Assembly: GCA_016125285.1 (NCBI GenBank)
Contig: WGMA01000028.1
Span: 1-64,000 of the forward strand
Direction: 5' to 3'
Length of the DNA stretch: 64,000 nt
Source of the DNA: Phycisphaera sp.
GTDB lineage: Bacteria > Planctomycetota > Phycisphaerae > Phycisphaerales > Zrk34
The notes below the pieces were generated by a model. That model saw only the letters and a list, made by a program, of their open reading frames with translations, did no database searches and was not told where the DNA came from. Both the position numbers and the translations under genes were made by a program. Positions within the stretch are counted from its first letter, which is position 1. Each line of letters opens with the position of its first letter. Shown here one piece after another: positions 1 through 57,072 of the stretch.

Positions 1-78
1 CAACTGCTCGACCCGACGCTCCAACGCCTCGACCCGTCGCAGCAATGCCTCGATCTGTGCCGGACTCCATTCCGTCAT
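1..78 (-). CDS. N-terminal fragment of a coiled-coil protein, possibly IS66-type transposase
   Basis: An ATG at 78 opens a minus-strand frame that runs off the left edge after 26 residues. The residues start MTEWSPAQIEALL and continue as Leu/Glu/Arg heptads (LRRVEALERRVEQL), which predicts a coiled coil. IS66-family transposases often begin with such a leucine-zipper segment, and a transposase at the border of a mobile island would fit. The fragment is too short to confirm this, and other coiled-coil starts are equally compatible. Confidence 0.4.
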   Translation of the reverse strand, partial: MTEWSPAQIEALLRRVEALERRVEQL

Positions 79-450
79 GCAACCGAGCATAACCTGCCCG
101 CGCCGACTGCGCCAGCATTATTGCACCCGGTAAACAGATACCCGCGCCACAATGAAGCCGAGATACACGTAAGCATTATGACCAGCGACGGACATACACT
201 GCCGATTGTTCGCCCGATCGTGAAGTCCGGAAGCCGCAAGAAGAAGCGGCTTATGCGTCGTTTGGAGATGCCTCAGATTCGCGAACTATCGCGGCCACTG
301 GTGGTGGTGTTTGTGCGATTGCGGGGCTCCAAGCGCTTCGCATTCAAGTTGTTGCCACAAGGAACGCGCGGGCACCGCGCAGCGAGCAAACTTCTTGATC
401 AACATGGCCAACAAGGCGGTCGAGAAAGGCGCTACTACATTGGCAAGCGA
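79..450. other. Intergenic stretch without a supported gene
   Basis: No reading frame here shows a recognisable domain or a convincing ribosome binding site. A plus-strand frame (ATG at 178, ending at 492) encodes a basic 104-residue product, but it runs into the 3' end of the jetD-like gene on the opposite strand and resembles nothing I know. The stretch probably separates a left-hand insertion sequence from the Muk/Jet operon. Confidence 0.4.
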
Positions 451-1473
451 TCAGACGCTGTCTGGAAAGGGATCAGTTCGTTCATGCCGTGAATCAGCGG
501 CACCTGCCAGCTGTGCGATTGCAGTGGCGATGCGAGGATCAAGCGTAACAGCTTCTTGCTCCAACCAGACGCCTTGTCGGCGTAGTTCTTGGACAAGATA
601 CGGCGCATCATCAAGGTTGAGATCGGCTGGCCATGCCGCCTTCAGGCCCTTCGCTGTGACCTGATCAGACCAGAAATCTGGGACCAGCCATTCGATCGTC
701 GGCCGAAGTTCGCGGAGGTGGCGCACTATTCGCACGCCGTTGGGGTCCAGGTCACCAAAATGCACGCAGGGCACTGCGGGCAACAGATTGAAGACCATCC
801 GAATCGTTCGCGTGTCCCATCCAGGTACGTGCGCCACCAGGCACCCCGCCGGGACACTGATGTCGAGATAAGGCCCAAGGTTCTCGACGGTGAGAAGACA
901 CCGCGGCAATATGCCGCCGAAGCGCGTTCCGGCCAATAGCGCCCGCTCGGTGAGGATCACTTCACCGAGCAGCGCGGCGATAGTGTCGGCCTTGAGGGCA
1001 GCATCGCCGCAAGTGATCTCCAAGCCCAATGAGGGTCGAAGGCGAACAGTACCGTCGTGCGTCAGGTTTGTGGATGCCAAGCTTGCTTGGAGCGTTCGAG
1101 ACAACGTCGTCTTCGAGTGGGCACCGACCTGAGCCAATGCGGTCCTGCGGTTCAGGCGAGGCGGAAGGCCCGCTGCTACGCGTGCCCGATCCATATCCTG
1201 CAGTTGCCGCCAGCCACGTTCACTTACTGGCAAGTCGGCGGACTGAAGCTCGGCGAGAACATCGGGCCAGTCGGGCCAGACCTGGTCAAGCAGGCGTTTC
1301 CCCTCGGAAGCTCTGCCCTCGTCCAAAGCGATCTCCTCTCGCCGGCCAGACTCCCTTGTCCATGAAAGCTGGGCGAGCCATTCCCACGCGATCGTCTGGC
1401 TATGGCGCTTTCGCAGCTTGCCTGTAGCGATCAGTTCAAGCAGTGCCAGCTTGTGTTCCTGCCGGTCCCACAT
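451..1473 (-). CDS. jetD: JetD-like TOPRIM nuclease subunit of a MukBEF-type Wadjet system
   Basis: The 340-residue product is the last gene of a four-gene operon. The C-terminal half carries a TOPRIM signature: Glu197 in LTVENLG and the metal-binding Asp pair 241/243 in HFGDLDPNG, followed near residue 305 by WLEQEA, a pattern seen in DUF2220/JetD proteins. JetD subunits cleave DNA that a condensin-like partner has extruded, and so restrict plasmids. The N-terminal half is helical and probably contacts the SMC complex. The start ATG overlaps the mukB stop as TAATG, implying translational coupling. The size fits JetD (roughly 340-400 aa). The family call is strong. The partnership with MukB is inferred from the operon. 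Confidence 0.85.
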   Translation of the reverse strand: MWDRQEHKLALLELIATGKLRKRHSQTIAWEWLAQLSWTRESGRREEIALDEGRASEGKRLLDQVWPDWPDVLAELQSADLPVSERGWRQLQDMDRARVAAGLPPRLNRRTALAQVGAHSKTTLSRTLQASLASTNLTHDGTVRLRPSLGLEITCGDAALKADTIAALLGEVILTERALLAGTRFGGILPRCLLTVENLGPYLDISVPAGCLVAHVPGWDTRTIRMVFNLLPAVPCVHFGDLDPNGVRIVRHLRELRPTIEWLVPDFWSDQVTAKGLKAAWPADLNLDDAPYLVQELRRQGVWLEQEAVTLDPRIATAIAQLAGAADSRHERTDPFPDSV

Positions 1474-4400
1474 TAGCTCTGGCTCTCCACTGCCAATCGT
1501 CGGCCAGACACAATGACTTCCTCATGACCTGCCTCGTCAACGCGACGGACGAGTCGGTAGGTCGTGTTGCCTTCCGCCTGCGCGACTTCGGGTGCGGCGA
1601 TGATCAACTGCAGGTCGAGACTCTGGCACAGATCGAAGAGCACGCTCAGGTTGTCTTGAGACAGCCGATTTGCCTCGTCGAGAAACAGCATTCGAAGGGT
1701 TCCGAGCGATCGCTTGGGGCGTAGAAGGTTGGCGTCGCGCTCCCAGGCGGTCAAAACCACCATCATGAGCGCCGCACCGACCCCAATGGCCTCACCCGTG
1801 GACATTCTCATTGGGTTGGCGACTTCCCAGTGCTCGCTCGATTGCCGGCGAACCTCCACCTTCGGTTCGATGTACTCTCGGTAGTCGAGGAGGCGTTGAC
1901 CCGTAGTTCTGCCTCCACCGCCATACCGACGAAACAACTCGTCGAGGGCGGTTTCGATAGGCATGTCCGGCTGGAATAGCAGACTCTGCGCCTCTCCGTT
2001 CCGCAGTGCGTGAAGGATCTGATCCATTCGTTCGACACGCTCCAGACGCAGTCGGACGCCATGAATACTCCCGAAGCGAACATCGCCGAGGTCATGATTC
2101 AGCTTGCTGATTTGGCGTTGGGCTCGTCGGATATGGATGTCGATGTTTTTGGCCACGTCTGACGATTCACCACGAAGATCGGCTTCCTGCCGGCTCAGGC
2201 GCTCTTCCAGGCCATCGAGGTGACTGCGCAGTCGCTCGAGCGCTTCCACCGGTTCGGCGACTTCGGCGATCTGGGCGGGAATTCGGCGCTTCAGCCAGTC
2301 TCGCACCGTCAACCATGCCTCAAGGCATGACTCACCGGCAAGCTCCTGCGTGCCCAGCAACTCATTGACAGCACCTACGACGTCACTGCTGTCGCGGGCA
2401 TGCGAAAGGCGCTCCTTAAGTCGAGCGGCCGCTTCCTTTGCATCGCTCCGCACATTCGCACTGCCCCGGCCACCGAACATGTCCACGAAGCGCCGTGTCA
2501 TTGCCGACGACAGCACGCCGTGTTCGGTGGCCAATGTTTCGAGCTTGTCCCAACGCTCCTGGTTTGGACGCCAGCCCCGCTCGGCCTCACCCCGGTCGTT
2601 CCGTCGCTGAGTGGCACGTTCGGCGGCCGCTTTGCGGCGCTCATCTAACCGAGCGATCTCCTCGCCAATGGCTCGTGCTCTCGACTTCAGCTCTTTGTCG
2701 GTGTTCTCTGCTTCGTCGACGGTGTCGTTCGCAAGCTGAACATCTGCGTCAGTGGCGCTGTCGACCTCACACGTGTGCCATTCTTCTTCATCTCGTTTGA
2801 TCGCCTCGGCCAGCTGCTGGACCTGTGCGTCGACCTTGTTGAACGCTTGGGTCGCAGCGTCGAGTGCTGTGTCTGCTTCATCGACTGCAGCCTGCCTGCT
2901 CGTTGCCGCAGTGCGGGCCTGCTCCATTTGCTGCTCCAGTGCGGGTTCCAACGCGACCTCACGCTTGAGAGCCGCTGCGGCATCGCTCCATGTCAGCGCC
3001 ATCCGGTGCTCGTCGACGTACCGGAGACACTCAAGGGCCTCGAGTCGTGTCTCCTGTTCCTGATCCAAAGCGCCGACACGCTCCTGCATCGCCGCGATCT
3101 CCGCTGGCGACATAGGCGGCGTCCGCAGCACGTCCATCTGCGACTCGAGGACTGACCTGTGCTCGTCCACATCCTGCAGGCGCTCCGCGGCGGCCTTTGC
3201 CTCGTTCTGCCTCTCCTTGAGCTCGTTAAGCCTTTGCTGCTGATCGGGCTCGTCCAGCAACCAGGCAGCGGGCAGCAGTTCCTGTAAGGCGGTTCTTCGT
3301 GCCTTCGTCGACGCGACTTCCGTGGCTATCTGGGCGGCGGTCTGGCGATGCTCGTGCTCGACTTTGGCCGTCGTCGCGAGCGTCACGGTGACACGGTCCA
3401 GTTCGGAAGAGGGATCACCGCGCTCCAAGGCATCTGCCTCTGTCAGCAGGCCATTTATCGCATTTAGATGGTTGGCCACGTCCCGAAGATCGGCGTCGCA
3501 TTGGTCGATCTGCCGTGCGTGGGACTCCGCCTCCTCACGCAGGTCGCGTATCCTGCGGGTGCGGGCACGACGCCCCAAAGTGGGGCGTTCAGGTATCCGC
3601 GACACGCGCCAGCTGGTGCCGCCGTTGACGATGGCATGGCCATCGTGGACGGTCCCATCAGGCCGCCCATCTGCATCAATCACCGGCGACGCGTCACCGC
3701 CAACGAGCCAGACGGAGTCAGGCGCGTCATCCAGATTGCACAGCGCGTTGGCCGCTGTTGCTGGATCATCCACGACAAGGGCATGGGCGAGAGGTCCAAG
3801 CAATGCCTCGATCTCGCTTGCCTGCTCAACGGTCAGTTCTTCGAACTGTGTCGCCAGCAGCTCACCGTCTAATGCATCGCGGACACGCAGCAGCGACATT
3901 GGGAATGTCCCGCCAGATTGCTCGAGTTGGGCGGCTTCCGCTGTGAGCTCCTGTTGTCTCTCGCGAAGTCGACCAAGTTGGTCGCGATAGCCATCACGTG
4001 CCTGATTCAGCCTGGACCGAAGAGATTGCAGGTTGTCCCGAGTTCGCAAAGGCTGTTCATATTGCTCTTCGAGCGGCTCCACCCGGCTTAGAATTTCGCT
4101 CCAGACAACGACAGCACGCTCCAAACTGCCTTTCCGCTCTTCCAGGTTCGAACGCTCTCTGCTGGCGGCTTCAGCCTTGCCTTCTTCTGACCGTAGGCGC
4201 TGGTCCAGCGACTCGATGTCGGCCTCGGCCTGAGTCAACGCTGACCGTACCGTGCTGGCCGAATCGAGCGTGAATTCATCGGTACTGAGCTGCGAAGCCG
4301 ACTCATGGGCGCGTGCTTGCTGCTCGGCGAGCTTCTGCGTGTCATGGATCGTCTGGGCCAGATCATCTCGCTGAGCGGCCTTAGCTTCCAGCGACCTGAG

Positions 4401-5897
4401 TTCGCGGCTTATCGCCAAAGCGCGTCGAAACGCATCCGGTGGCGCGATGTCCTCTTCGGCTATCGTCAGCAACGCATCGTAGACGACTCCGAATTCTCTT
4501 CGGTGTTCTTCAGCGTTTCGCACCTGGTTGGACAGATGGCGGAACTCTCTTGATACATCAGCGTATTTGCGGTCGACGTCAGCCAACATCTTTGCCACCG
4601 TGTCGGCTTCGATCCGTTCGACGGGAAGGAGCTGGCGCGCACGGTCCATGCGACGTGTTGCCAAGCGGTGCTCAGCGGCCCGACGCTCAAGTTCCTCCAA
4701 GCCCTTCTGGTGATTGGCAAGACTCGCGCTGGCTGCTTCGAGATGGCGTTGCGCTTCATCGCGCTCTTTACGAGCTCTCGCACGATTCATTTCGGCTTGT
4801 TGCTTCGTCGAGATTGCCTCTTCATGCTCGCGATGCAGTTGGCCTAGCATCTCCTTTCGTTCGCCCATGCGCTGAGCGATGGCTTGTGCGCGCTTCAGTC
4901 GCTCCAGATATTGCCGAGCATCTGCGAGATGTCGTTCGGCGTCACGAAGGTCTTTGTCAAGACGGTCATTCTCCACCTTCTTCCCTTCCAGTTCCGTCGT
5001 AAGCTTCTGTTCCTCATTCTCCGCATCCTTGGCCATTCGGCTCGCGTCTTCGAATCGCCGACGCAGTTCCTCCGCGCGTTCGCGTGTGGCGTGAATTGCG
5101 GCCGCGAACATCTGCTGGCCAGCTTCGTAGACGCCGGCGATTTCCTGTTCCAGCTTTCGGGACTCTTCCACCTCAATGCGCGTACGCCGGCAGGCGTCAA
5201 GATTGGAACGCATCCGCTTGAGCGTGTCAGCCAGCCCTGCCTCCTCCTTGAGCAGGAAATCACGAAGCTCCGACGTCAGGGCCCGCGAGATACCTCCAGT
5301 CATGCTTGTGCGAAGCATCTCGTTGAGCTTGTTGCGATCGCTATCGCTGGCCAGACGCAGTGGCGTAATGCCTCGTTCGAACAGCGCGGCGAAGTATTCC
5401 TTGGCCGTCGAGTACACCTGCATCACCGCGCCCTGGGCGGCGACTTGATCACGGAGTTGGGCGAGTTCGGGTACGCCATCCATCTCTCCGCGTTCGAGAA
5501 GCAAGTCCTGGAGTCGGACCGAATCGTCGAGGCTGGTGATGATGAATGGGGTGAGTTCAACGGTCGGTTCGGCTTTGCGTTGAAGGTGGACACCGGCCAA
5601 CAATCGCTGCCCGTGCTCGAGGGCCAACTCCAGGACGGCATAGGCAGGCCGACTGCTCTCACCCAACCGTCCCCATAGTCCGCGGTCACCGCCGGAGGGA
5701 GAGTGTTCGCCGAGATTGGTAAACCGCAGTCGTGTCATGTCTGGCAACAGGACCACGTAGCAGCCAATGAGCACCGTGGTCTTGCCGGCACCATTGGCAC
5801 CTTCGAGGGCGGTCACGTGGGAATCCAGCAAGTAGCGCTCGTAGAAGACACCGCGCCAATTAACGAGAGCCAATGCTTTTGCGCGTGCTCGGTTCAT
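1473..5897 (-). CDS. mukB: MukB-type SMC condensin ATPase (JetC role)
   Basis: The 1474-residue length matches gammaproteobacterial MukB (about 1486 aa) rather than the shorter JetC/MksB proteins. The N-terminus (ALVNWRGVFYERYLLDSHVT, then Walker A GANGAGKTT at residues 33-41) tracks MukB closely. The middle consists of two very long Glu/Arg/Ala coiled coils around a hinge near residues 640-790. The C-terminal head has the signature MSTGEAIG near 1365 and Walker B LFLDEAN near 1404, followed by LQLIIAAPE as in MukB. It should form a dimeric loop-extruding motor with MukE and MukF in the cytoplasm. It overlaps mukE by four bases (ATGA) and the nuclease gene by one base. Confidence 0.93.
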   Translation of the reverse strand: MNRARAKALALVNWRGVFYERYLLDSHVTALEGANGAGKTTVLIGCYVVLLPDMTRLRFTNLGEHSPSGGDRGLWGRLGESSRPAYAVLELALEHGQRLLAGVHLQRKAEPTVELTPFIITSLDDSVRLQDLLLERGEMDGVPELAQLRDQVAAQGAVMQVYSTAKEYFAALFERGITPLRLASDSDRNKLNEMLRTSMTGGISRALTSELRDFLLKEEAGLADTLKRMRSNLDACRRTRIEVEESRKLEQEIAGVYEAGQQMFAAAIHATRERAEELRRRFEDASRMAKDAENEEQKLTTELEGKKVENDRLDKDLRDAERHLADARQYLERLKRAQAIAQRMGERKEMLGQLHREHEEAISTKQQAEMNRARARKERDEAQRHLEAASASLANHQKGLEELERRAAEHRLATRRMDRARQLLPVERIEADTVAKMLADVDRKYADVSREFRHLSNQVRNAEEHRREFGVVYDALLTIAEEDIAPPDAFRRALAISRELRSLEAKAAQRDDLAQTIHDTQKLAEQQARAHESASQLSTDEFTLDSASTVRSALTQAEADIESLDQRLRSEEGKAEAASRERSNLEERKGSLERAVVVWSEILSRVEPLEEQYEQPLRTRDNLQSLRSRLNQARDGYRDQLGRLRERQQELTAEAAQLEQSGGTFPMSLLRVRDALDGELLATQFEELTVEQASEIEALLGPLAHALVVDDPATAANALCNLDDAPDSVWLVGGDASPVIDADGRPDGTVHDGHAIVNGGTSWRVSRIPERPTLGRRARTRRIRDLREEAESHARQIDQCDADLRDVANHLNAINGLLTEADALERGDPSSELDRVTVTLATTAKVEHEHRQTAAQIATEVASTKARRTALQELLPAAWLLDEPDQQQRLNELKERQNEAKAAAERLQDVDEHRSVLESQMDVLRTPPMSPAEIAAMQERVGALDQEQETRLEALECLRYVDEHRMALTWSDAAAALKREVALEPALEQQMEQARTAATSRQAAVDEADTALDAATQAFNKVDAQVQQLAEAIKRDEEEWHTCEVDSATDADVQLANDTVDEAENTDKELKSRARAIGEEIARLDERRKAAAERATQRRNDRGEAERGWRPNQERWDKLETLATEHGVLSSAMTRRFVDMFGGRGSANVRSDAKEAAARLKERLSHARDSSDVVGAVNELLGTQELAGESCLEAWLTVRDWLKRRIPAQIAEVAEPVEALERLRSHLDGLEERLSRQEADLRGESSDVAKNIDIHIRRAQRQISKLNHDLGDVRFGSIHGVRLRLERVERMDQILHALRNGEAQSLLFQPDMPIETALDELFRRYGGGGRTTGQRLLDYREYIEPKVEVRRQSSEHWEVANPMRMSTGEAIGVGAALMMVVLTAWERDANLLRPKRSLGTLRMLFLDEANRLSQDNLSVLFDLCQSLDLQLIIAAPEVAQAEGNTTYRLVRRVDEAGHEEVIVSGRRLAVESQS

Positions 5898-6577
5898 GGT
5901 GCCTCCTCTGCCGATTCGTCGTCGCCGTCATAGTCTTCATCATCCTCCGAGCCATCCACCACCACGGCCTTGCCCTCCGCGACCAGCTTCGCCATCGCCT
6001 CACCAGGGTCGGCAAGACCCCTTACAGCATCCGCGAAGCGAAGCACCGAAGAACGCAGTCGGAGTTGTCCCTCATCGAGCAGGTCAACGAAACCCAAGCC
6101 CGATAGGCCGCGAATCGCCTTGAGGATTTCATCCCGAACGGTCCGCTGAGCAGTGCGCTCGTCATATCGACGACGGCGTGGATTGAGTGCTCGAATCAGC
6201 TCTTGCTGATTGATCAAGCCGGCCAACCGAGAGGCCACGACGTCCTGGCTCGTCACGCCACCGGCCTGCACGGTCGCGGGGTCGAGATACAACAATGCCA
6301 ATGTTTGCCCAACGAGCATCTCGCCGGCGCTCAGGTGCCGGCGTCCCATTGAATCGGTCTGGGGCAGCAAGTAGAAGAATCCATCGCTCGTGTGAACAAG
6401 CTCGCATCCGTAACGACGGTAGAACTCTTCAAGCACCAGTTGGGCGTCAGACAGAAACGCGTAACGGTCAGGTTCATCGCGGTCGATGTGACACCCACGA
6501 CGAAGAGCCAGGTCCACATCAGGGAACAAATCATCTTCGATGACGCTCTGAATGTCCTGAAAGCTTGAATCGTTCAT
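5894..6577 (-). CDS. mukE: MukE-type kite subunit (JetB role)
   Basis: The 227-residue product aligns by eye with MukE: FPDVDLALRRGCHIDRDE near the N-terminus, LEEFYRRYGCELVHTSDGFFYL, and RLRSSVLRFADAVRG near the C-terminus, which ends in an acidic Asp/Glu tail. MukE is a winged-helix KITE protein that binds MukF and the MukB head and regulates DNA capture. The ATG at 6577 was chosen because it overlaps the mukF stop as ATGA and gives the length of E. coli MukE (225-234 aa). An upstream in-frame ATG at 6670 would add 31 residues buried inside mukF. Confidence 0.92.
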   Translation of the reverse strand: MNDSSFQDIQSVIEDDLFPDVDLALRRGCHIDRDEPDRYAFLSDAQLVLEEFYRRYGCELVHTSDGFFYLLPQTDSMGRRHLSAGEMLVGQTLALLYLDPATVQAGGVTSQDVVASRLAGLINQQELIRALNPRRRRYDERTAQRTVRDEILKAIRGLSGLGFVDLLDEGQLRLRSSVLRFADAVRGLADPGEAMAKLVAEGKAVVVDGSEDDEDYDGDDESAEEAP

Positions 6578-7905
6578 GCTTGGCCCTCGGGCTGACCGCT
6601 CGAACGGTGCGGGCGACCGTTCCGAAGTTGCCAGTCTTCGATTTCGATGTCGTTCAAGATGGGCTTCCAATCACGCTCACGAGGTGATTGCGGTCGGGCT
6701 TCTTTGGCGACCTGCCAGGTCACGCGTCCGACGCTGACGTAGCGATGTACTGCTGCGACGTGCGGCAGCACTTCCTCAAGCACGTCAGCCAATCGCTCAG
6801 GGTCTTCAGCCAACGATTGCCGAACGCGATCTTCGAGCGTCACCAAGTCCGACTCGGGAATCACGTCCTCGATCTGTTGCTCGCGGTCTCGACTCGGCTG
6901 CCAGACCGGCGGACGTTCGACCCGATCTGTCGATTCGCGCAGCAACCGAATCGACGGGGTACGAGCGATCACCAGGGCAAACGGCTGACTCGGCCAGTCG
7001 GCCAGTCGGTTGCGAAGACGCTCGCTGATAGCGCGATCCGGGTCCAGCCGCACCACATCCCTGAGGAACCGATGGACGTACTGGTAGAAGTCAGACCATG
7101 CCCTTTGCCGCGCACCGCCCCAAGCAGCAACCCGATCCACTTGTTCGCCGACACGATGGACGGTCTGCTCCGCATCCGACATGTCGGCCATCGCCGCCAG
7201 TTGCTCGATGTCGCTGAGAATGGCCTGAATCTGGTTGGTGTCGCTGAGAAGCACCGTGTTGAGTTCGGCCAATGTGGATGCGGTCTCATCGAGGAGTGAC
7301 TGGCATTGGTCGATAGCGCCGAACCAGTCCTCCTGCAGCAACTCGCCGATTCGTTTCTGCACCTGCTCTTGCTGAAGGTCCAACCCGCGCTGGCGGCGTT
7401 CGATGCCGCCGACCAGATCGCCGACCGTCACGCGCAAAGGGCCGATCACGCCTTCCCGCCATTGCTCGGGGCTGGTGGCCTGCTTGGCGTTGGCCTTCGC
7501 CTCGGCAAGGCTCGCCAGCAGCGTCTTGGTCAGGAGTGTCAGGCTCTCGCGCGTCAATGCTTCATCGGCCTGGAAGAATCGAATGATCCCCAGGGCCAGC
7601 TGGGTCAGTGCGTACTCGCCGGCCCGGACGACACCGGCTCCGTCCACCCGTGCAAGCAGTCGCTGGTCGCGCAGCCGCTGGATCGCATGGGTAGCGCGCT
7701 TGGCCACGTTGTCGGCGTCCGCCTCGACCGCGTCGCAGACTTGTTCGAATACGTCGAGCAGGACGTCTTCCTCGAAGCAGGTCAGGCCGCTCTGGTCAGC
7801 CCGGGCATGCAGAGCGACCAGAAAGCAGATGTCCACCGTCTTCAGATCGAGGTTCACGCCGTCGCGGTGGAGCGAAGCGATGACCCGCAGGAAGTTGTCG
7901 TTCAT
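6574..7905 (-). CDS. mukF: MukF-type kleisin subunit (JetA role)
   Basis: The first gene of the operon encodes 443 residues, essentially the length of MukF (440). It has an N-terminal winged-helix region (LKTVDICFLVALHARAD), a helical linker, the segment QEQVQKRIGELLQEDWFGAIDQCQSLL that corresponds to the MukF four-helix bundle, and a C-terminal winged helix (RDWKPILNDIEIEDWQL). Kleisins bridge the SMC heads. The ATG at 7905 is preceded by a GGGGGTG stretch and gives a MukF-like N-terminus. A start at 7956 would add 17 unlikely residues. Confidence 0.9.
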   Translation of the reverse strand: MNDNFLRVIASLHRDGVNLDLKTVDICFLVALHARADQSGLTCFEEDVLLDVFEQVCDAVEADADNVAKRATHAIQRLRDQRLLARVDGAGVVRAGEYALTQLALGIIRFFQADEALTRESLTLLTKTLLASLAEAKANAKQATSPEQWREGVIGPLRVTVGDLVGGIERRQRGLDLQQEQVQKRIGELLQEDWFGAIDQCQSLLDETASTLAELNTVLLSDTNQIQAILSDIEQLAAMADMSDAEQTVHRVGEQVDRVAAWGGARQRAWSDFYQYVHRFLRDVVRLDPDRAISERLRNRLADWPSQPFALVIARTPSIRLLRESTDRVERPPVWQPSRDREQQIEDVIPESDLVTLEDRVRQSLAEDPERLADVLEEVLPHVAAVHRYVSVGRVTWQVAKEARPQSPRERDWKPILNDIEIEDWQLRNGRPHRSSGQPEGQA

Positions 7906-8030: not shown

Positions 8031-8786
8031 ATGGCGCGTAATCTGAAGCCCGCCGCTCCGGTGCTCAAGCCCCTCGACACCCGCCTCGCGGGTGCTGTTG
8101 CCGTGGGCGAGCCGAACTTTCCGGTTTGGGACCGAGCGGTGGACGCTTACGTCCGCAGTTACGAAATGCCCGATGGCGACATCGAGCGGCAATTGGCGCG
8201 GGACGAGGTGATCGGGGCCGGCAATGTGCTGTGCGAATTGCTGACCGTGCTGTGTGAAGTGGACCCACCTCAAGATCAGTGGACCCGGCCAAAATACTGC
8301 CCGAATCTGTCGGGGCTGGATGCTTGGATGCGGTCCGAGAAGTTCGGAGTGGATTTCCATCTGGGAATCGACATCGGGCAAGGCATCTATCTGAGCACGG
8401 AGTTGGTGAGCCCGGCTCCACTTTGGCGCATGCGAGACGACTTCTGGTGGTTGCTTGCGAGTATGACGGAGTTTGGCGATCTGCGTTTCGAGCAGAGCGA
8501 GTGTCCCACACCGCCAATTGACCAGCACGTCACTCGGACACTGGAGCGATCGCGTTCGACCGTCTTCACACTGATCACCAACTACGTCATGTTCCAGGCC
8601 GAGGATGGCTCTGAGGAGCCGCATCTCGGAAGCGTCGACGTGTACTGGCCGGGCGACGTTGAGTGGTCAGAACTGATCCGCTGTGGAGCCGAATGCTTCC
8701 GGCGGCTGTACCGCATGAACTACCTGATCTACCGCCTGAACTACATCGGACAGAAGGCGGCCGAACGGCAAGCACAGGAAGATTGA
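8031..8786 (+). CDS. Unrecognised 251-aa protein of the XRE/ImmA island
   Basis: I do not recognise this family. The product is soluble and acidic with many aromatic residues (segments such as RDDFWWLLASM and YRMNYLIYRLNYIG), and has no signal peptide or membrane segment. AAGGATGAC precedes the ATG. The gene sits alone behind its own TTGACA/TAGATT promoter, which shares an operator-like motif with the XRE/immA genes and with the 10018-12115 pair. It is therefore probably co-regulated with them. A role as an effector or a sensor is possible but not shown. Confidence 0.7.
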   Translation: MARNLKPAAPVLKPLDTRLAGAVAVGEPNFPVWDRAVDAYVRSYEMPDGDIERQLARDEVIGAGNVLCELLTVLCEVDPPQDQWTRPKYCPNLSGLDAWMRSEKFGVDFHLGIDIGQGIYLSTELVSPAPLWRMRDDFWWLLASMTEFGDLRFEQSECPTPPIDQHVTRTLERSRSTVFTLITNYVMFQAEDGSEEPHLGSVDVYWPGDVEWSELIRCGAECFRRLYRMNYLIYRLNYIGQKAAERQAQED

Positions 8787-8818
8787 CACCGACAGGTCGA
8801 GCGTGTAGTCTTGCCTAA
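8783..8818 (+). promoter_or_regulatory. Promoter with shared GTGTA-N7-CTAA operator, site 2
   Basis: TTGACA (8783-8788) overlaps the stop codon of the preceding gene. It is followed after 17 bases by TAGTCT (8806-8811), and GTGTA-N7-CTAA occupies 8803-8818. The spacing between all elements is identical to site 1, and the following bases (AAAC) also match. It should drive the XRE and immA genes, so autoregulation by the XRE protein is the natural reading. Confidence 0.65.
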
Positions 8819-8861
8819 ACAGTTAGCGCCGCGTCATGTGGCGGATCAGACGAGGATACCC

Positions 8862-9224
8862 ATGGCCGGCAACCCGAAATTCGGCAAGCGCGTCCGCGAC
8901 CTGCGGGAGGCCAAGCTTCAGACGGACCCAAAGTTCACTCTACGGCAGTTTGCCGCAGCTGTGGGCATCAGCGCGACGTTCTTGAGCAAGGTCGAACGTG
9001 GCGAGTTCGACCCACCGGCGGCGGAGAAGATCATCAAGATGGCCGAACTGCTGGACGTCGATGCGGACGAGCTTCTGGCGCTGGCGAACAAGTTTGACCC
9101 GGAGCTGGAGAAGATCATCAAGGAGAAGCCGAGCATCCTACCCGATCTACTGCGCACGCTGCGGGGCCGGTCGGAAGAGCAGCTCCGCAAGCTGATGGAG
9201 CGGGAGCGGAGACGAAAGGACTGA
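8862..9224 (+). CDS. XRE-family helix-turn-helix repressor
   Basis: The 120-residue protein has an N-terminal XRE domain: RVRDLREAKL, then LRQFAAAVGISATFLSKVERGEFDPPAAEKIIKMAELL with the recognition helix around SATFLSKVE. The C-terminal half (FDPELEKIIKEKPSILPDLLRTLRG) is helical and followed by a very basic tail. Its partner immediately downstream is an ImmA-type protease, the classical pair in which damage or another cue triggers cleavage of the repressor. The ATG at 8862 is preceded by GAGGATACCC. An in-frame ATG at 8811 lies inside the operator and is unlikely. Confidence 0.9.
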   Translation: MAGNPKFGKRVRDLREAKLQTDPKFTLRQFAAAVGISATFLSKVERGEFDPPAAEKIIKMAELLDVDADELLALANKFDPELEKIIKEKPSILPDLLRTLRGRSEEQLRKLMERERRRKD

Positions 9225-9238
9225 CACGCGAGGGCGAC

Positions 9239-9940
9239 ATGGCCAAGGTGAAGTACCTGACACAATCCGCGATCGAGCGAGCCGCACTCTGCCTTCTGGC
9301 CGAGTATGGCGATAAGTACGGTGAGGTGGTCGATCCGCCCGTACCGGTCGAGGCGATTGTCGAAGGTCACCTGCGATTGGGGTTCGACTTCGACGACCTG
9401 CCGACAATGCTGGGGATCGACGGGGTGCTGGGCGCGATCTCGTTCCCGCAGCGACATGTCTTTGTGGATCAGTCACTCGATCCCGAAACCTTTCCCCACA
9501 AAGAGGGTCGGTGCCGGTTCACGATCGCGCACGAGGTTGGGCATTGGGAATTGCACCGACACCAGTTCACCGCCGACACCAACCAGTCTGCGCTTTTCGG
9601 CGATGACAGCAAGCCGTCGATCGTCTGCCGCGCTCGCTCGCGCAAGGAGCCGGCGGAGTGGCAGGCGGACATGTTCTCGGGATATCTGCTGATGCCCAAG
9701 GAGATGGTCCTGCGCGCCTGGCGGAGCCGGTTCGGCGAACTCGATCCATACGTCGCGCGCGATGAGATCGCCGATCTGTCTGCGCGATGGGGCTTGGGCG
9801 AAGACGAGCAACCCACCGTGGAGGTGGCGAAGGACATGGCCCGTGACTTCAAGGTGTCCGGGCAAGCGATGCAGATTCGATTGATTGGGCTTGGGCTGAT
9901 CCGGACCGAGGTGCCCGAGCCTGACTTGTTCACGCAATAG
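9239..9940 (+). CDS. ImmA/IrrE-family zinc metalloprotease
   Basis: The 233-residue protein contains the zinc-binding HEXXH motif HEVGH at residues 98-102 within FTIAHEVGHWELHRH, followed by the ADMFSGYLLMP segment typical of ImmA/IrrE (COG2856). These proteases cleave and inactivate the neighbouring XRE repressor, derepressing its targets. The gene starts 14 bases after the XRE stop with GAGGGCGAC before the ATG, so the two are co-transcribed. The C-terminal region could be the signal-sensing part. Confidence 0.9.
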   Translation: MAKVKYLTQSAIERAALCLLAEYGDKYGEVVDPPVPVEAIVEGHLRLGFDFDDLPTMLGIDGVLGAISFPQRHVFVDQSLDPETFPHKEGRCRFTIAHEVGHWELHRHQFTADTNQSALFGDDSKPSIVCRARSRKEPAEWQADMFSGYLLMPKEMVLRAWRSRFGELDPYVARDEIADLSARWGLGEDEQPTVEVAKDMARDFKVSGQAMQIRLIGLGLIRTEVPEPDLFTQ

Positions 9941-39750: not shown

Positions 39751-40593
39751 ATGAGCGAATATCCGAGAACACTTCACGTGATGTCGACGGGGCCGGGGTT
39801 TGGCAACTGGATCGCCGCCGAGGGCGTCCGCCGCTATTTGCCCGCTGGTATCCCGTCGATCGACTTCCGCCGGGTCGATCCGGCCGGCATCGACGTGCTG
39901 ATCATCGGCGGCGGCGGATTTCTGCACAGCGGCGCGGAATCGTTCTGGCGTCGGGTTGCCGAGGCGCGCTGCCGGGTCATCCTCTGGGGCTTGGGCGCAT
40001 GCCAGCCCCTGCCCGGCACACCCGATCGCGGCAGGATTCGACCGCTGGACCCGAGCGTCATGGCGAGGATCAGACCCCGGATCGCCCTTGCGGCGGTCCG
40101 GGATGAGTGGACAAGGGACCTCTACAGCCTCGACGCCGAAATCCTCTTCTGCCCCTCGATCAAGGCTCTCGAAGGCGTCCCGGTTCGCCCGTCTACACGA
40201 TCCCTTTACGCCCACCATCCGGGACTGGTCGGCAAGACCGAAGCGCAGCGACTGGCTGGCCTTTGCGATCAGACGACGGACCACGTGCGAAGCCCGGGGG
40301 CGGCGACACCTCAAGCTGTCGTCGCCCTTCACGCATCGGTGGGGTTCTGCGTCACCTCGCGCCTCCACGGGGCGGTGGTGTCCAAGGCGCTGGGTGTGCC
40401 GTACGTCGCTCTTGCCAGGGACCGCAAGATCGTTGAGTTCGTGCGCCGATGGGGAGGCGGCCTGCTGATGCATGGGGAAATCGCGCGCGTGCTGGCCCCG
40501 GGGGCGGGGGCGATCCCCTCAGCCCCGCCGATCGACATCCTCGGCAATGACCGCTTCGCCGCGGAGGTCCGTCGTCTGGTGGAGGCAATCTGA
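39751..40593 (+). CDS. Polysaccharide pyruvyl transferase-like protein
   Basis: The 280-residue product shows the two-Rossmann layout of the family: GFGNWIAAEGVRRYLP near the start, DVLIIGGGGFLHS, VILWGLGACQP, and the C-terminal hallmark VTSRLHGAVVSKALGVPYVALA. These enzymes transfer pyruvate or act as GT-B glycosyltransferases on surface glycans. It is the first gene of a glycan cassette at the end of the phage late operon and overlaps the next glycosyltransferase (TGATG). Confidence 0.8.
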   Translation: MSEYPRTLHVMSTGPGFGNWIAAEGVRRYLPAGIPSIDFRRVDPAGIDVLIIGGGGFLHSGAESFWRRVAEARCRVILWGLGACQPLPGTPDRGRIRPLDPSVMARIRPRIALAAVRDEWTRDLYSLDAEILFCPSIKALEGVPVRPSTRSLYAHHPGLVGKTEAQRLAGLCDQTTDHVRSPGAATPQAVVALHASVGFCVTSRLHGAVVSKALGVPYVALARDRKIVEFVRRWGGGLLMHGEIARVLAPGAGAIPSAPPIDILGNDRFAAEVRRLVEAI

Positions 40594-41177
40594 TGAACAC
40601 GCCACTCCACGAAACACACCCAGTCATCCCGCGCATCATCCACCAGATTTGGCTCGGACCGCCGATGCCGGACCGCGTGCGCGCCTGGATCGACGGCTGG
40701 CACGCGAAGCACGGCGACTGGGAACATCGCTTGTGGACCGAGCAGAACCTGCCGGCGCTGGTGAACCAAGTATGGTTCGACGCGACGGACATCCCGGCGC
40801 AGAAAGCCGACATCGCGCGCTACGAGATCGTACATCGCTTTGGCGGCCTTTATGTCGATGCTGACTACGAGTGCCTGGGGCGTATCGATGGGGTGGTCGC
40901 CGGGTCCGAACACCTACTGATCGAGGGCGTCGAGCCGCACCTGTTGCACAACGGTCTGTTCGCCGCCGTCGCCGGCTCGCCGCTGCTGGCGCGAGCGGTC
41001 GAACTGATCCCACAGCGAATGCGCAAGCGGCCGGGCGTCGTCGGGCAAACCGGTCCCAGACTGTTCGCCGAGGCCGCGCAGGAGGTCGGGTTGTCGTGGC
41101 AGCCGGCACGGATTCTTGACGGCGTCGCGCATCACCACGCGATGGGCTCGTGGCTCGGCAGGAGGTTTCGGCCATGA
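40593..41177 (+). CDS. OCH1-type (DXD) glycosyltransferase
   Basis: The 194-residue product starts IPRIIHQIWLGPPMPDRVRAWIDGW, the signature of the OCH1/Gly_transf_sug family, with KADIARYEIVHRFGGLYVDADYECLG carrying the DXD metal-binding motif (DAD). It should transfer a sugar from a nucleotide donor. It overlaps the Ser-rich gene by four bases (ATGA), so the acceptor may be that protein. Confidence 0.87.
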   Translation: MNTPLHETHPVIPRIIHQIWLGPPMPDRVRAWIDGWHAKHGDWEHRLWTEQNLPALVNQVWFDATDIPAQKADIARYEIVHRFGGLYVDADYECLGRIDGVVAGSEHLLIEGVEPHLLHNGLFAAVAGSPLLARAVELIPQRMRKRPGVVGQTGPRLFAEAAQEVGLSWQPARILDGVAHHHAMGSWLGRRFRP

Positions 41178-43036
41178 GCGATCACCTCAAGAAAGTCCAG
41201 TCGGGCGACCCGTTGGTCATCCCGGCGGCGACGTTCAATGCGTTTGTCGATGCTGCGTTCGACTTCAGTCGCCGTCAGCGTGGTCTGGGTCGTGACAGCC
41301 AGGCGGTGTTCCGTCAGCTCGACATCATTCCCGTGCGCAACGACACGGGCGAGGACCTTGATCGGTTCAGCGCCGTCGGCATCGCCGCACCGATCATCGG
41401 CCCCGATGTCAACGCCGACGAGTTCAAGAACCGAGCCACCGCGATCGGCGTCAAGCCGATCGTGCCCGACCATCGCGGGCGCTTCGCGGTCTATCTCGAG
41501 CCGGTCAAGGACGGCAAGATCGCCCCGGCGTGCGTCAGCGGCGTGATTCCCTGCCAGATCAACGTTGAGGAAGAGACGCACCTGCGTGCCGACATCGAGC
41601 ACGACGAGACGATCCTGCTGACCGGTCACCACGGCGGCGCAGAGATTCTCTGGAAGGAGTCGGGCAAGGGCGTCAAGTGGGCGCTGGTCAAGGTCGGCAT
41701 CGCCGAGCCGCTGGCGATCACATTCGACGTGAAGCTCGTGAAGGCCGACGGTGAGTCGGGCGAGAATTGCGAGGAAGACTGCTCGTTCAAGTACGACATC
41801 TTCGACATCCACACCGGCGAGAAGCTCAACGAGGACGACGAGCCGCAGGGACCGATCCAGTCCGACATCCGCCCGAAGAAGACGCAGATGATCGCCGCCA
41901 CGCGCGGCACGGCCTACTGGACGGTCAAAGAGGTCGACGGCAAACCGAAGATCGCCGTGCAACTGGAGGAGGCGTTCGAAGAGCCAACGCCCCGCGCCCA
42001 GCAGTATGTCGTCACCGGCATCAGTTGCGATGAAGGCAGCGGGTCGGCCTCCGGGGACGGGGGCGGCGGCACGCTCGGCCACGGTTCGGGCGACTGCTGC
42101 GACTTCACGCTCAAGTACCACACGTCGAAGGTGTGCTACCCGCCCGGCGTGAAACTTGAAGACGGCCCGACGTACACCGTGCGCTGCGGCAGTTCGTCCA
42201 GCGGCTCATCGTCAGGATCGAGCTTCGAGTCGTCGGACGGATCGCCAAGCGGATCGGGCAGTTCGTCGGGGTCACCGTCTTCCAGCGGTAGCTCTGGTTC
42301 GAGCAGTTCGAGTCCGCCGAGCAGTTCGAGCGGCAGTTCCCAAGGTTCGTCATCGCCCAGCAGCGGTTCACCGCCGTCTGGCAGTTCGGGTCCGCCGGAG
42401 TTGCCGCCGCCGCCAAGCGAGCCGGGCTACTACCAGCTCTGCGTCTGCTACGACGGGACCGTTCACTGGACCCGCACCGGCGACACCAGTTGCGGATCGT
42501 CTGATTCGAGCGGCAGCACACCGCCACCGCCACCACCTCCGCCGCCGTCCGGGTCGAGCGGCGTCGACTCGTCGTCGGGCAGCGATTCATCATCCAGTGG
42601 GTCCGCGAGTGGATCGTCGGACAGTTCCAGCGACAGCAGCGGTTCCGAGTCCTCGTCGTCATCATCGGTACCCGATTCTTCGGACTCGTCAGGCTCGAAT
42701 GGTTCATCGGCCAGCGGCAGCCCGTCGGGTTCGTCTTCACCGTCGTCCGCAACGCCGTCGTCCGGCGCGTCCGGCTCGACGAGCAGCGATGGCGGCGACG
42801 GTTCAGCGTCGTCGGGGTCGGATGGATCAACCGCGAGCGACGGTTCTACATCATCGGGTTCGCCATCGGGTGGCGAATCGTCAGGCGATTCAAACACCAG
42901 CAGCGAATCGGGATCACCGTCGCCACCGTCGTCGGCACCATCCGGCTCGTCATCCCAGGGCGGCGACGGATCAACAACCAGCAGCGCGTCCGGTCAGTCC
43001 GGCAGCGCATCAAGTGGGAGCACGTCATCATCATGA
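41174..43036 (+). CDS. Ser/Gly-rich phage surface protein
   Basis: The 620-residue product has two parts. Residues 1-330 are a structured domain (VQSGDPLVIPAATFNAFVDAAFDFSRRQ ... FSAVGIAAPIIGPDVNADEFKNRATAIGVKPIVPDHRGRFAVYLEPVKDGKIAPACVSGVIPCQINV) that resembles planctomycete phage tail proteins. From about residue 335 to the end the sequence is almost only Ser, Gly, Pro and Asp, interrupted once by YYQLCVCYDGTVHWTRTGD and a Pro7 run. Mucin-like Ser density beside three glycan genes suggests O-glycosylation. Coding is supported by TCG/AGC codon use with no stops over 850 bases. Confidence 0.75.
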   Translation: MSDHLKKVQSGDPLVIPAATFNAFVDAAFDFSRRQRGLGRDSQAVFRQLDIIPVRNDTGEDLDRFSAVGIAAPIIGPDVNADEFKNRATAIGVKPIVPDHRGRFAVYLEPVKDGKIAPACVSGVIPCQINVEEETHLRADIEHDETILLTGHHGGAEILWKESGKGVKWALVKVGIAEPLAITFDVKLVKADGESGENCEEDCSFKYDIFDIHTGEKLNEDDEPQGPIQSDIRPKKTQMIAATRGTAYWTVKEVDGKPKIAVQLEEAFEEPTPRAQQYVVTGISCDEGSGSASGDGGGGTLGHGSGDCCDFTLKYHTSKVCYPPGVKLEDGPTYTVRCGSSSSGSSSGSSFESSDGSPSGSGSSSGSPSSSGSSGSSSSSPPSSSSGSSQGSSSPSSGSPPSGSSGPPELPPPPSEPGYYQLCVCYDGTVHWTRTGDTSCGSSDSSGSTPPPPPPPPPSGSSGVDSSSGSDSSSSGSASGSSDSSSDSSGSESSSSSSVPDSSDSSGSNGSSASGSPSGSSSPSSATPSSGASGSTSSDGGDGSASSGSDGSTASDGSTSSGSPSGGESSGDSNTSSESGSPSPPSSAPSGSSSQGGDGSTTSSASGQSGSASSGSTSSS

Positions 43037-44355
43037 ATCTGAAGAACTACTTCGACAAGGTCGTCTGCATCAACCTCGACCGCCGTGCCGATCGCTGGCA
43101 GCGTTTCCAAGATAACGTCGCCAGCGCCAGTTGGCCGTTCCGCGAGATCGAACGGTTCACCGCTGTGGACGGGCACAACGTGCCGGCCCCGGGCTGGTGG
43201 CGCGCCGGCGGCGGCGCGTGGGGTTGCCATCAATCCCACGTCCGCATCCTCCAGCAAGCGATTCAGGAAGGCGCGGAGTCGGTGCTGATCCTCGAAGACG
43301 ACGCTGTGCTTCCCCAGCGCTTCCCCGAGGTCGTCGAGACGTTCCTCGCCAAGGTGCCCGGTGAATGGGAGGGCATCATGCTCGGCGGACAGCACCTCCG
43401 CCCGCCCGACATCGTGGACAACGGCGTGGTCAAGGTCCGCAACGGCAACCGCACGCACGCCCACGCCCTGCGCGGCAACTATATTAAGGATGCATACCGG
43501 CACCTGTGCGACTACCCCAACCACGCCCAGCGGCCGCGTTTCCACGTCGACCATCGCCTGGGCATGCTGCACGAGAGCGGCAAGTACAAGGTCTACGCCC
43601 CCTCGCCCTGGCTGATCGGCCAGGACAGCGGCCGCAGCGACATCGCGGGGAACAACTTCAGCCTTCGCTTCTGGTCCGACGGCCCGTGGCAGCAGAACCA
43701 GCCCGACGAGCTGCCCCCGTTCGTCGCCGTCATCGGCCTGCACCGCTCCGGCTCCAGCGCCCTGGCCGGCGTCCTGCACAAACTCGGCGTCCACCTCGGC
43801 AACCAACTCGGCGGCTACGAGCCGCAGGGCGGATTCGAGGCGATCACCCTAGCCCACCTCTGCGAGCGGGCCTATCCATTCCCGTCGACCGAACTGGCCA
43901 TGCCGCGCGAGCAACTGGTCAATGAACTACGATCGTTCATCGATGAGAAGCGCCGCGAGGCGTTCCACAAGAATACCATCGCCGGCGGCAAGTACCCGCA
44001 CCTCTGTGCCATGGGCGACGAGTTGCGTGAAGCATGTGGCGACGCTCTGCGCGTGATCCACATCAACCGCCCGCTCGACGAATCGATCGCCTCGATCAAG
44101 GAGCGATCCGCCAAGGAGAAGGGCTGGCTGCGCATCACCGATGCCCAAGCCGAAGCCGTCCAGCGATGGCTTTGGGAGCGCAAGGCCGGGTTCCTCGCCG
44201 AGGTCGAGCACCTGACCGTCGAGTTCGACGATCTGCGGACCGATCCGACCGGGCAGATCGAACGGATCATCGACTACCTCGGCATCAAACCTACCGACGC
44301 ACAGGTCGCCGCCGCGTTTGGGCACGTGCGCACTGATACACCCGTTACGACCTGA
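43033..44355 (+). CDS. GT25 glycosyltransferase fused to a sulfotransferase domain
   Basis: Residues 1-205 match the GT25/LPS glycosyltransferase family: FDKVVCINLDRRADRWQRF, ERFTAVDGHNV, AWGCHQSHVRILQQAIQEGAESVLILEDDAVL (the EDD metal motif) and WEGIMLGGQHL. From about residue 230 FVAVIGLHRSGSSALAGVLHKLGVHLG is a sulfotransferase PAPS-binding loop, and RVIHINRPLDESIASIKERS a 3'-phosphate site. The second half would add sulfate to a glycan or protein. The gene overlaps the Ser-rich gene by four bases and ends the late operon. Confidence 0.85.
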   Translation: MNLKNYFDKVVCINLDRRADRWQRFQDNVASASWPFREIERFTAVDGHNVPAPGWWRAGGGAWGCHQSHVRILQQAIQEGAESVLILEDDAVLPQRFPEVVETFLAKVPGEWEGIMLGGQHLRPPDIVDNGVVKVRNGNRTHAHALRGNYIKDAYRHLCDYPNHAQRPRFHVDHRLGMLHESGKYKVYAPSPWLIGQDSGRSDIAGNNFSLRFWSDGPWQQNQPDELPPFVAVIGLHRSGSSALAGVLHKLGVHLGNQLGGYEPQGGFEAITLAHLCERAYPFPSTELAMPREQLVNELRSFIDEKRREAFHKNTIAGGKYPHLCAMGDELREACGDALRVIHINRPLDESIASIKERSAKEKGWLRITDAQAEAVQRWLWERKAGFLAEVEHLTVEFDDLRTDPTGQIERIIDYLGIKPTDAQVAAAFGHVRTDTPVTT

Positions 44356-50066: not shown

Positions 50067-50098
50067 TTGACCTTATACCTAAGTGCATGGTGTAAGCT
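50067..50098 (+). promoter_or_regulatory. MerR-type promoter/operator of mercury unit B
   Basis: TTGACC (50067-50072), 20 bases, TAAGCT (50093-50098). The spacer region holds CTTATACC (50072-50079) and GGTGTAAG (50089-50096), a dyad with one mismatch. The over-long spacing and central dyad are the marks of a MerR-regulated promoter. The half-site differs from the CCGTACC of unit A, implying that each MerR has its own operator. Confidence 0.75.
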
Positions 50099-50169
50099 TT
50101 AGTGTGGCGATCTGGTCCTGGCCCCGAATGGGGGCTTGGTCGACGGATCGCCCGCACGGAGATTCAACC

Positions 50170-51597
50170 ATGAACTCAATGCAGACCAATCCTTCAGTTG
50201 CGGAGACGAACAACAACGCTTGTCCCAGTTGCGGTGAGAAAGGCAAGGCCGTCAAACCCGTCACGCTCAAGTCGCTATTGACGGACGAAGCGCAGCGACG
50301 GGCGGATGACCTGGACGGCTTTCGCTTCTGCCCGACACCCGGCTGCGACGTAGCGTACTACCGCGCCGGCGGCGACCGCTTCGTGGTCGGCGACGTGCGT
50401 GTACCGATTGGTCAGAAACAGACCGACGCCTCGCGGTTGGTCTGCTACTGCTTCGACCACACCGCGTCCGAGATCGAGGCTGACGTCGAGGCGTCGGGCA
50501 CGTCCACAATCCCGGACGACATTGCGGCCAAATGCAAACAGGGCCTGGACCGCTGCCCCGAAACCAATCCGCAGGGCTCGTGCTGTCTGGCCAACGTGAA
50601 GGCGGCGCTGAAGGACGCACAGGTGAAGCACGGCGTCACGGCTGACCCATCAATTGGGGCAGCTGGGGCGGCGGCGGCGGCGAGTTGCTGCGACGCGTCC
50701 GCGCAGGATACCGCCGCACAGCAAGGAGTTGATTGCTGCGGGAAACCCGAATCGACGAAGGCGACCAAGAGCAGTTCCGGTAAAGGCGGCCTGTTTGCCA
50801 CGGGCGGCGCAGTGGTCGCGGCCATTCTTTCGTCCGCGTGCTGCTGGCTGCCGCTGCTGCTGATCGCGTTCGGCGCATCCGCCGCCGGCGTGTCGGGATT
50901 CTTCGAGCAGTACCGGTTTGTCTTCCTCGGTGCGACGGCCGTGCTGCTGGCCGGGGCGTTCTACTTGGTCTATCGCAAGCCGCGATGCGGACCCGGCGAG
51001 GCGTGCGCCGTGCCCAACGTGCGACTGCAACGATTCAACAAGGGCATGCTCTGGGTCGCCACGATGATCGTCGTCGCCTTCGCCGCGTTCCCGAACTATG
51101 TGGGCGCGTTGATCGGCGGCGGCTCAAGTGGTGCTGACACGAACATCACTTCCACCGCTGCGCCCGACCGGACCTTCCAAATCGAAGGGATGACCTGCGA
51201 GGGCTGCGCCGCCAATCTCGGATCTCAGCTCACTCAACTACCTGGCGTGGCCCGCGCCGAGGTGTCGTATCCGGACAAGTCGGCCAAGGTGTACTTCAAG
51301 GCCGATGCGCCCGCACCGCCGACGGACGAGCAACTTCAATCGCAGATCGTGGCCGCGGGGTTCAAAGGTGTTCCTGCCTCTTCCAACCACACAGTGAATA
51401 TCAACATCAGTGGCATGACCTGCGAGGGTTGCGCCGCCGGCTTAGCGGAGCGCTTGAAAGCGATCCCCACCGTGAAAGCGGCAAGCGTCGATTACAAGGC
51501 GAAGCGGGCCGTCGTCATTGTGCCGGCCGACACGAGCATTGACCCGGTGCTTGAAGCGGTCCGCGCCGAAGGCTTTGAAGGCAAAGTCAGCCGCTGA
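50170..51597 (+). CDS. Fusion of CopZ-like Fe-S domain, MerT transporter and two MerP-like HMA domains
   Basis: Residues 1-165 resemble the N-terminal iron-sulfur/zinc domain of archaeal CopZ (ACPSCGEKGKAVKPVTLKSLL, FCPTPGCDVAYY, LVCYCFDHTASEIEADV). Residues about 195-310 are MerT: three membrane helices with the CC pair in AILSSACCWLPLLLIAFG, then CGPGEAC on the loop. Two HMA domains follow, each with GMTCEGCAA. One polypeptide would thus bind Hg(II), carry it through the inner membrane and hand it to MerA. GGAGATTCAACC precedes the ATG. Confidence 0.87.
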   Translation: MNSMQTNPSVAETNNNACPSCGEKGKAVKPVTLKSLLTDEAQRRADDLDGFRFCPTPGCDVAYYRAGGDRFVVGDVRVPIGQKQTDASRLVCYCFDHTASEIEADVEASGTSTIPDDIAAKCKQGLDRCPETNPQGSCCLANVKAALKDAQVKHGVTADPSIGAAGAAAAASCCDASAQDTAAQQGVDCCGKPESTKATKSSSGKGGLFATGGAVVAAILSSACCWLPLLLIAFGASAAGVSGFFEQYRFVFLGATAVLLAGAFYLVYRKPRCGPGEACAVPNVRLQRFNKGMLWVATMIVVAFAAFPNYVGALIGGGSSGADTNITSTAAPDRTFQIEGMTCEGCAANLGSQLTQLPGVARAEVSYPDKSAKVYFKADAPAPPTDEQLQSQIVAAGFKGVPASSNHTVNINISGMTCEGCAAGLAERLKAIPTVKAASVDYKAKRAVVIVPADTSIDPVLEAVRAEGFEGKVSR

Positions 51598-51687
51598 CTC
51601 GTCAGGATGTCCCCTCCGTGTGTCTGGGCGAGTGGAGCAGACGGGTGGGTGAGTCACCGGCCCACGGGTTGTTTTTTGGATCACACC

Positions 51688-52281: not shown

Positions 52282-52314
52282 TCCGAGACTGTACCGTGAA
52301 TCTGAACCGGCATC

Positions 52315-56955: not shown

Positions 56956-56999
56956 GCGTTAACTGGATCACCGGCCGAAGTTCGGTCTGGTGATTTAAG

Positions 57000-57072
57000 C
57001 TCCCCGAACTGGACTCGAACCAGTAACCTGGCGGTTAACAGCCGCCCGCTCTACCAATTGAGCTATCGGGGA
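57000..57072 (-). tRNA. tRNA-Asn (anticodon GTT)
   Basis: On the minus strand the 73-base sequence folds as a standard tRNA: acceptor TCCCCGA/TCGGGGA with discriminator G, D arm with AATTGGTAGAGC, anticodon stem GGCGGC-type around CTGTTAACC with anticodon GTT, and T arm ACTGGTTCGAGTCCAGT. No CCA is encoded. It marks the border between the mobile island and the sugar-catabolic genes. Confidence 0.95.

Follow-up and report, generated by a model that had tools for sequence, protein, structure and literature searches.

The locus described here raises the question of whether a condensin motor of the MukB kind can form part of a Wadjet-like system with a nuclease of its own, as it carries mukF, mukE, and mukB followed by a jetD gene. 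In Wadjet, according to the available portions of PMC12647877 and PMC10586767, JetABC extrudes a DNA circle and JetD is activated once extrusion is complete, and the TOPRIM dimer cuts bent DNA (excerpted text of PMC13040014). MukBEF is assigned to the Wadjet group by reviews and by a 2025 Cell paper, and as published it is without MksG/JetD and confined to enterobacteria and their relatives (both points from the accessible parts of PMC7617805 and PMC10586767); a 2023 review speculates that MukBEF arose from Wadjet and calls the relationship unresolved (PMC10586767, same part). In the literature accessible in this form we came across no account of operons that pair a MukB-clade SMC with JetD, and Data S1 of PMC7617805, a list of Wadjet operons drawn from ~257,000 genomes, may well include them. 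The module is not categorically new, since both its four-subunit layout and its nuclease family had been described already; it is best seen as a Wadjet-like system whose motor genuinely belongs to the MukB clade.

The window, i.e., the whole stretch of 64,000 nucleotides that we analysed, is the first 64 kb of a 211-kb contig (C64) from a 6.1-Mb Phycisphaera sp. genome. The mukF-mukE-mukB-jetD operon lies on its minus strand at 451-7905, and all four genes are open and intact:

6574-7905, minus strand: mukF (kleisin), 443 aa; Pfam MukF_M and KicB, NCBIfam MukF under cut-off
5894-6577, minus strand: mukE (KITE), 227 aa; Pfam MukE
1473-5897, minus strand: mukB (SMC ATPase), 1474 aa; NF003422, Pfam MukB N-terminal domain and hinge
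451-1473, minus strand: jetD (TOPRIM nuclease), 340 aa; TOPRIM at about residues 140-326; PF09983
883-885, minus strand: codon of the JetD catalytic Glu197, identical in 20/20 aligned JetDs
745-753, minus strand: JetD codons 241-243, the DxD motif (D241, D243), with the Asp pair identical in 20/20

The genes are coupled through overlaps at every junction (ATGA at mukF/mukE and at mukE/mukB, TAATG at mukB/jetD), and overlapping genes are also seen in the related operons L002, L005, and L013. The complete MukFEB operon with JetD proposed in the initial annotation is confirmed at this place by its intact reading frames, Pfam and NCBIfam matches, and overlapping genes, and a chance arrangement is excluded because eight genomes or plasmids have the same gene order.

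MukB passes the cut-off of the NCBIfam equivalog NF003422 (979 bits; cut-off 699), matches the Pfam MukB N-terminal domain (7.6e-75) and hinge (6.4e-38), and carries the ATPase motifs Walker A (residue 33), signature STGE (1366), and Walker B LFLDEA (1404). MukE matches Pfam MukE (2.4e-39), and MukF matches the MukF middle domain MukF_M (2.2e-25) and KicB, the MukF winged helix (9.7e-13); both fall under their NCBIfam equivalog cut-offs (134 vs. 250 bits for MukE, 331 vs. 407 bits for MukF), though the matches are nearly full-length. Identity to the E. coli proteins is 27.9% for MukB (BLASTP 2e-95), 27% for MukF (408 aligned columns), and 35% for MukE (E=2e-35). The Muk assignment made from the sequence alone is therefore borne out by the MukB equivalog and the domains, but its qualifier “gammaproteobacterial” is too strong at 27-35% identity to E. 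coli.

No significant JetA or JetB relative of MukF or MukE was found by BLASTP (MukF against JetA gave nothing except a match at E=3.9), and PADLOC models match neither protein, so that surveys based on PADLOC would probably miss the module. The PADLOC JetC1 score of the window's MukB (62.6 bits) is hardly above that of E. coli MukB (57.6 bits), and two JetC3 models give weak coiled-coil matches (23.6 and 18.3 bits) that leave the head unmatched.

The fourth subunit belongs to the JetD family (Pfam JetD_C, PF09983, 1.6e-7; 31 bits vs. a cut-off of 22). A five-sequence AlphaFold model (mean pLDDT 78) resembles in its C-terminal half MksG of Corynebacterium glutamicum (8b7f_A; Z 16.6, rmsd 2.5, 164 residues), topoisomerase VI A (Z 15.3, rmsd 2.8, 179 residues), and Pseudomonas aeruginosa JetD (7til_B; Z 14.4, rmsd 2.9, 166 residues). 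The N-terminal part, the place of the CAP domain in Wadjet JetDs, is short (~115 aa) and weakly winged-helix-like in the model, with a best Z of 6.1 and no clear match. A dead nuclease is ruled out by the retention of E197, D241, and D243 in all 20 aligned JetDs, which comprise eight encoded beside MukB, an orphan from Aeromonas, eight of type I, and three of the TIGR02679 kind; the TOPRIM domain thus keeps its catalytic E and DxD residues.

A tree of 24 SMC head sequences (471 columns) unites the MukBs accompanied by JetD (JetD+) and four housekeeping MukBs in one clade with support 100/100. Within it the nine JetD+ rows group together (96.7/99; 92.4/94 in a 21-row tree), as do the four housekeeping rows (100/100), so that the JetD+ MukBs are sister to housekeeping MukB and far from type I and TIGR02680-type JetC, the latter being JetC2 in PADLOC naming. 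The C10 mixture model, an unfinished topology without support values, shows the same two MukB clades. Among the JetD+ rows, L036 carries that label though its contig ends inside mukB and represents the N-head only, L004 joins the N-head of contig C339 (L039) to the C-head of contig C542 from one genome, and L003 and L038 supplied just the C-head. For L054, the motif at which the C-head was trimmed is doubtful. Excluded were L056 (signature pattern unmatched), L044, L040 (partial), and L049 (jetC interrupted by an insertion sequence).

Forcing the JetD+ MukBs together with TIGR02680 JetC (two such sequences) is rejected by the AU test (p 3.5e-4), and so is forcing them together with type I JetC (p 3.3e-4). 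The latter result, together with BLASTP, which brings type I JetC no closer than 1e-5 and in a single head (2e-95 for E. coli MukB), also rules out a type I Wadjet of the usual sort whose SMC had been misnamed MukB. JetC3, the PADLOC type III protein, was compared by HMM alone and is outside the tree; sequence searches for JetC3 found none, the control genomes likewise giving no match. With the type I and TIGR02680 groupings rejected and the catalytic residues kept, the proposal of a branch of Wadjet that uses a true MukB as its motor is supported, the comparison with JetC3 being by HMM only. The initial annotation had also suggested an ancestral form linking defence and chromosome condensins; this is supported in part, as the head tree makes the module a sister of housekeeping MukB but not its direct ancestor. 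Topologies in which housekeeping MukB arises from within the JetD+ group fare poorly in the AU test (p 0.037 and 0.0024), although the one with p 0.037 is not rejected by the SH test (0.395). In the full table of AU comparisons, the third and fourth trees share one likelihood and are effectively a single tree.

The module shares with the MukBEF of Enterobacterales and relatives (E. coli, Klebsiella, Proteus, Aeromonas) its MukB N-terminal domain, hinge, length, and motifs, as well as the gene order mukF-mukE-mukB and a sister position in the head tree. It differs by its 27-35% identity, by jetD after mukB, and by its accessory, mobile nature in a host that retains Smc, with no replacement of Smc. 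With type I Wadjet/MksBEFG (JetABCD, DUF3375-DUF4194-JetC-DUF3322) it has in common the four-gene plan of kleisin, KITE, SMC, and nuclease, and the JetD TOPRIM fold with its E/DxD residues. The type I SMC is, however, ~1100 aa long against the module's 1474 aa, the type I JetD is ~390-400 aa against 340 aa with a different N-terminal part, and grouping of the two SMCs is rejected by the tree. The TIGR02677-02680 Wadjet (PADLOC type II) likewise has a long SMC (~1380-1410 aa) and a TOPRIM JetD, but its subunits are without significant BLASTP similarity to those of the module and stand apart in both trees. Wadjet-II and MukBEF are both described as lacking a hinge channel (available text of PMC12647877), and by this analogy the module may behave like Wadjet-II towards roadblocks.

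We find jetD directly 3′ of mukB in all eight loci whose sequence includes the 3′ end of mukB, the window among them: six from Planctomycetota, one from a Bryobacterales metagenome-assembled genome (MAG), and one from a Burkholderia pyrrocinia plasmid. A JetD scan of genome contigs returned four loci, every one with MukB upstream (L002 from Phycisphaerales, L003 and L004 from Planctomycetota, and L005 from Bryobacterales). The plasmid search added the 880-kb pBPJTT of B. pyrrocinia (L013), which carries the same four genes, and a phylum search added two operons, L035 (genome G086) and L038 (G228). Two MukB pieces that end at contig ends (L036 and L039) are outside the count of eight, and the majority of relatives are MAG contigs. 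Upstream of the intact mukF of L036, a degenerate second mukF fragment (5163-6452, 60 residues matching MukF) is the relic of a second copy.

The module occurs in 6/392 genomes of Planctomycetota, its own included, and in 1/396 genomes of the phylum of the Bryobacterales MAG, which is that MAG itself. MukB above cut-off is absent from 40/40 related genomes, the module's own genome being alone among the 41. We found no relative in viral_contigs scanned with JetD, MukB, and the Aeromonas JetD, or in the phage collection searched with the Aeromonas JetD, and a near-identity search of E. coli genomes with the B. pyrrocinia jetD gave no match. Searching phages with MukB returned two phage-named records of ~1.7 kb (OR845762.1 and OR851549.1) that are probably host DNA. 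The host genome encodes an ordinary full-length Smc (968 bits vs. a cut-off of 567); the module is therefore accessory, and its being the host's only condensin is ruled out.

The operon occupies one end of ~57 kb of DNA in which phage genes, a large serine integrase, and a tRNA-Asn are also found. The positions of three plus-strand genes on its mukF side, of the integrase, and of the tRNA are:

8031-8786, plus strand: gene of unassigned family beyond mukF
8811-9224, plus strand: HTH gene divergent from mukF; PADLOC CapH 2e-8, Pfam HTH_31
9239-9940, plus strand: M78 peptidase gene; PADLOC CapP 2.9e-20, Pfam Peptidase_M78
54254-55843: large serine integrase, adjoining the tRNA-Asn
56999-57072: tRNA-Asn, near the serine integrase

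The CapH/CapP-like HTH and M78 pair is a possible damage-responsive regulator of the operon or of the neighbouring prophage, whose switch it would then be. Phage-type genes at 14869-44000 encode a Sak4-like protein, SSB, helicase, primase-polymerase, TerL, portal, head protease, and tape measure. Just past the phage tail genes, a polysaccharide pyruvyl transferase and a glycosyltransferase-25/sulfotransferase protein (39751-44355) are unusual cargo, and mercury-type genes (a MerT/HMA/CopZ-like fusion and a pyridine nucleotide-disulphide oxidoreductase; 50083-53751) separate the phage genes from the integrase.

Past jetD the contig continues for only 450 bp and terminates in a 140-nt repeat (window 1-141) that is identical at the start of contig C22 and at C59:58299-58436 and is probably the edge of a multicopy insertion element. 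On its minus strand the repeat reads as an ORF start, perhaps that of an IS66-like insertion-sequence transposase. Because the contig ends in this shared repeat, the left boundary of the element is lost and the operon may lie inside the prophage or just beside it; we conclude that it adjoins a prophage-like element and is perhaps inside. The mobile island of the initial annotation corresponds to a ~57-kb stretch with phage genes, integrase, and tRNA-Asn, and the operon's place within the prophage stays at “perhaps.” A search for an empty site led to a related genome's contig that has the symporter neighbouring the tRNA-Asn here and carries no tRNA.

Among the relatives, the B. pyrrocinia operon adjoins CBASS genes and IS21, WYL regulators are found at L002 (where the operon lies behind one) and L013, and L035 has nearby an SNF2 helicase resembling many PADLOC helicases; the L005 neighbours that were tested are not defence genes.

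We consider it likely that the module is a mobile SMC-plus-nuclease defence module in which a MukBEF motor with a dedicated JetD would carry out Wadjet-like restriction of circular DNA; it probably acts in defence by destroying plasmids, and is probably a near relative of the ancestor that gave rise to housekeeping MukBEF. The MukB equivalog and domains, the fold and catalytic residues of JetD, the conserved gene order and overlaps, the two trees, the rare, patchy, accessory spread, and the defence surroundings of some relatives (CBASS, WYL, SNF2 helicase) count in its support, and against it we count the sub-cut-off scores of MukF and MukE, the weak PADLOC JetC1 score, the unmatched N terminus of JetD, the nondefence neighbours of L005, and the preponderance of MAGs among the relatives. 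By analogy with Wadjet, we infer that the four proteins would form a complex that extrudes and cleaves DNA and restricts plasmids. MukB dimers, linked by MukF and MukE, would make up a loop-extruding complex; a small DNA circle would be extruded to completion, and the stalled complex would present bent DNA to the JetD TOPRIM dimer, which would cut it. The module would thereby be expected to measure and cut small circles, and the chromosome would be spared because extrusion never finishes there.

The closeness of MukB, MukE, and MukF to housekeeping MukBEF rather than to any Jet subunit compared also fits a chromosome-organizing MukBEF gained by transfer, with JetD serving as a decatenase or repair nuclease and not as a weapon, but we regard this as improbable given a host Smc above its curated cut-off and a module that is rare, patchy, carried on a plasmid, and found beside phage genes. 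A less distant competitor keeps the same biochemistry and changes the beneficiary: as cargo of the adjacent prophage or element, the module would remove competing circular replicons for the element rather than for the cell. The window's own genes for phage structure and replication, its serine integrase and tRNA-Asn, the CapH/CapP-like pair next to the operon, and the plasmid carrier in Burkholderia all speak for such a role; set against them are the left boundary lost in the contig-end repeat, an operon GC of 0.60-0.61 vs. 0.63-0.66 in the phage core, and the lack of relatives in viral_contigs, and we hold it to be a tenable but minority reading beside that of a cellular defence module.

How the nuclease came to the motor bears on the origin of MukBEF itself. 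The grouping of all JetD+ MukBs in a single clade next to housekeeping MukB (96.7/99) leaves room for one late gain, in which MukBEF acquired its JetD a single time from a different Wadjet instead of keeping it from a common ancestor. A tree of the 20 JetDs, on the other hand, places the Muk-type JetDs and an Aeromonas caviae orphan in a clade of their own (99.9/99); as the type I and TIGR02679 JetDs sampled fall outside it, none of the sampled types is the donor, and recruitment appears rather unlikely to us. The split between orphan and operon JetDs inside the clade is weakly supported (60.8/72). The orphan comes from a 4.94-Mb record of A. caviae KAM479, filed as a plasmid, that carries housekeeping mukFEB with a MukB ~50% identical to the E. 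coli and Klebsiella MukBs:

L014 13737-14762 (record 2393864-2394886), same strand as mukFEB: Aeromonas orphan jetD, 341 aa, catalytic residues intact

It sits 7.2 kb downstream of the housekeeping mukB, with an IS605-type transposase and unrelated genes in between, and the E. coli, Klebsiella, and Proteus records have no JetD within ~9 kb downstream of mukB; a JetD near housekeeping mukFEB is thus seen in one of four loci, the Aeromonas case being one genome. Tentatively, housekeeping MukBEF could be a domesticated Wadjet, MukFEB-JetD the surviving defence branch, and Aeromonas a lineage that retains the nuclease, although we would sooner bet against this scenario than for it; if it is true, the Aeromonas JetD may work with MukBEF in trans against circular DNA. 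The module is compatible with the published proposal of a defence-system origin for MukBEF but does not prove it. With a JetD+ sister of housekeeping MukB, a matching JetD clade, and a relic-like Aeromonas JetD, the origin of MukBEF, on which the finding bears directly, becomes directly testable, and one motor with and without a nuclease provides a natural pair for studying how a folder of chromosomes becomes a cutter of plasmids.

Plasmid-borne Wadjet loci gave three further observations. On a Vibrio nigripulchritudo plasmid (L049 4797-9519) a type I jetC is interrupted by an IS3-family element with jetD intact downstream, and an Arthrobacter plasmid (L050 3789-9261) has a jetABC-type operon with jetD absent downstream. 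On an Alicyclobacillus dauci plasmid (L055 9301-12665), cas12b is annotated in two pieces and adjoins a TIGR02680-type Wadjet and a MazF-like gene.
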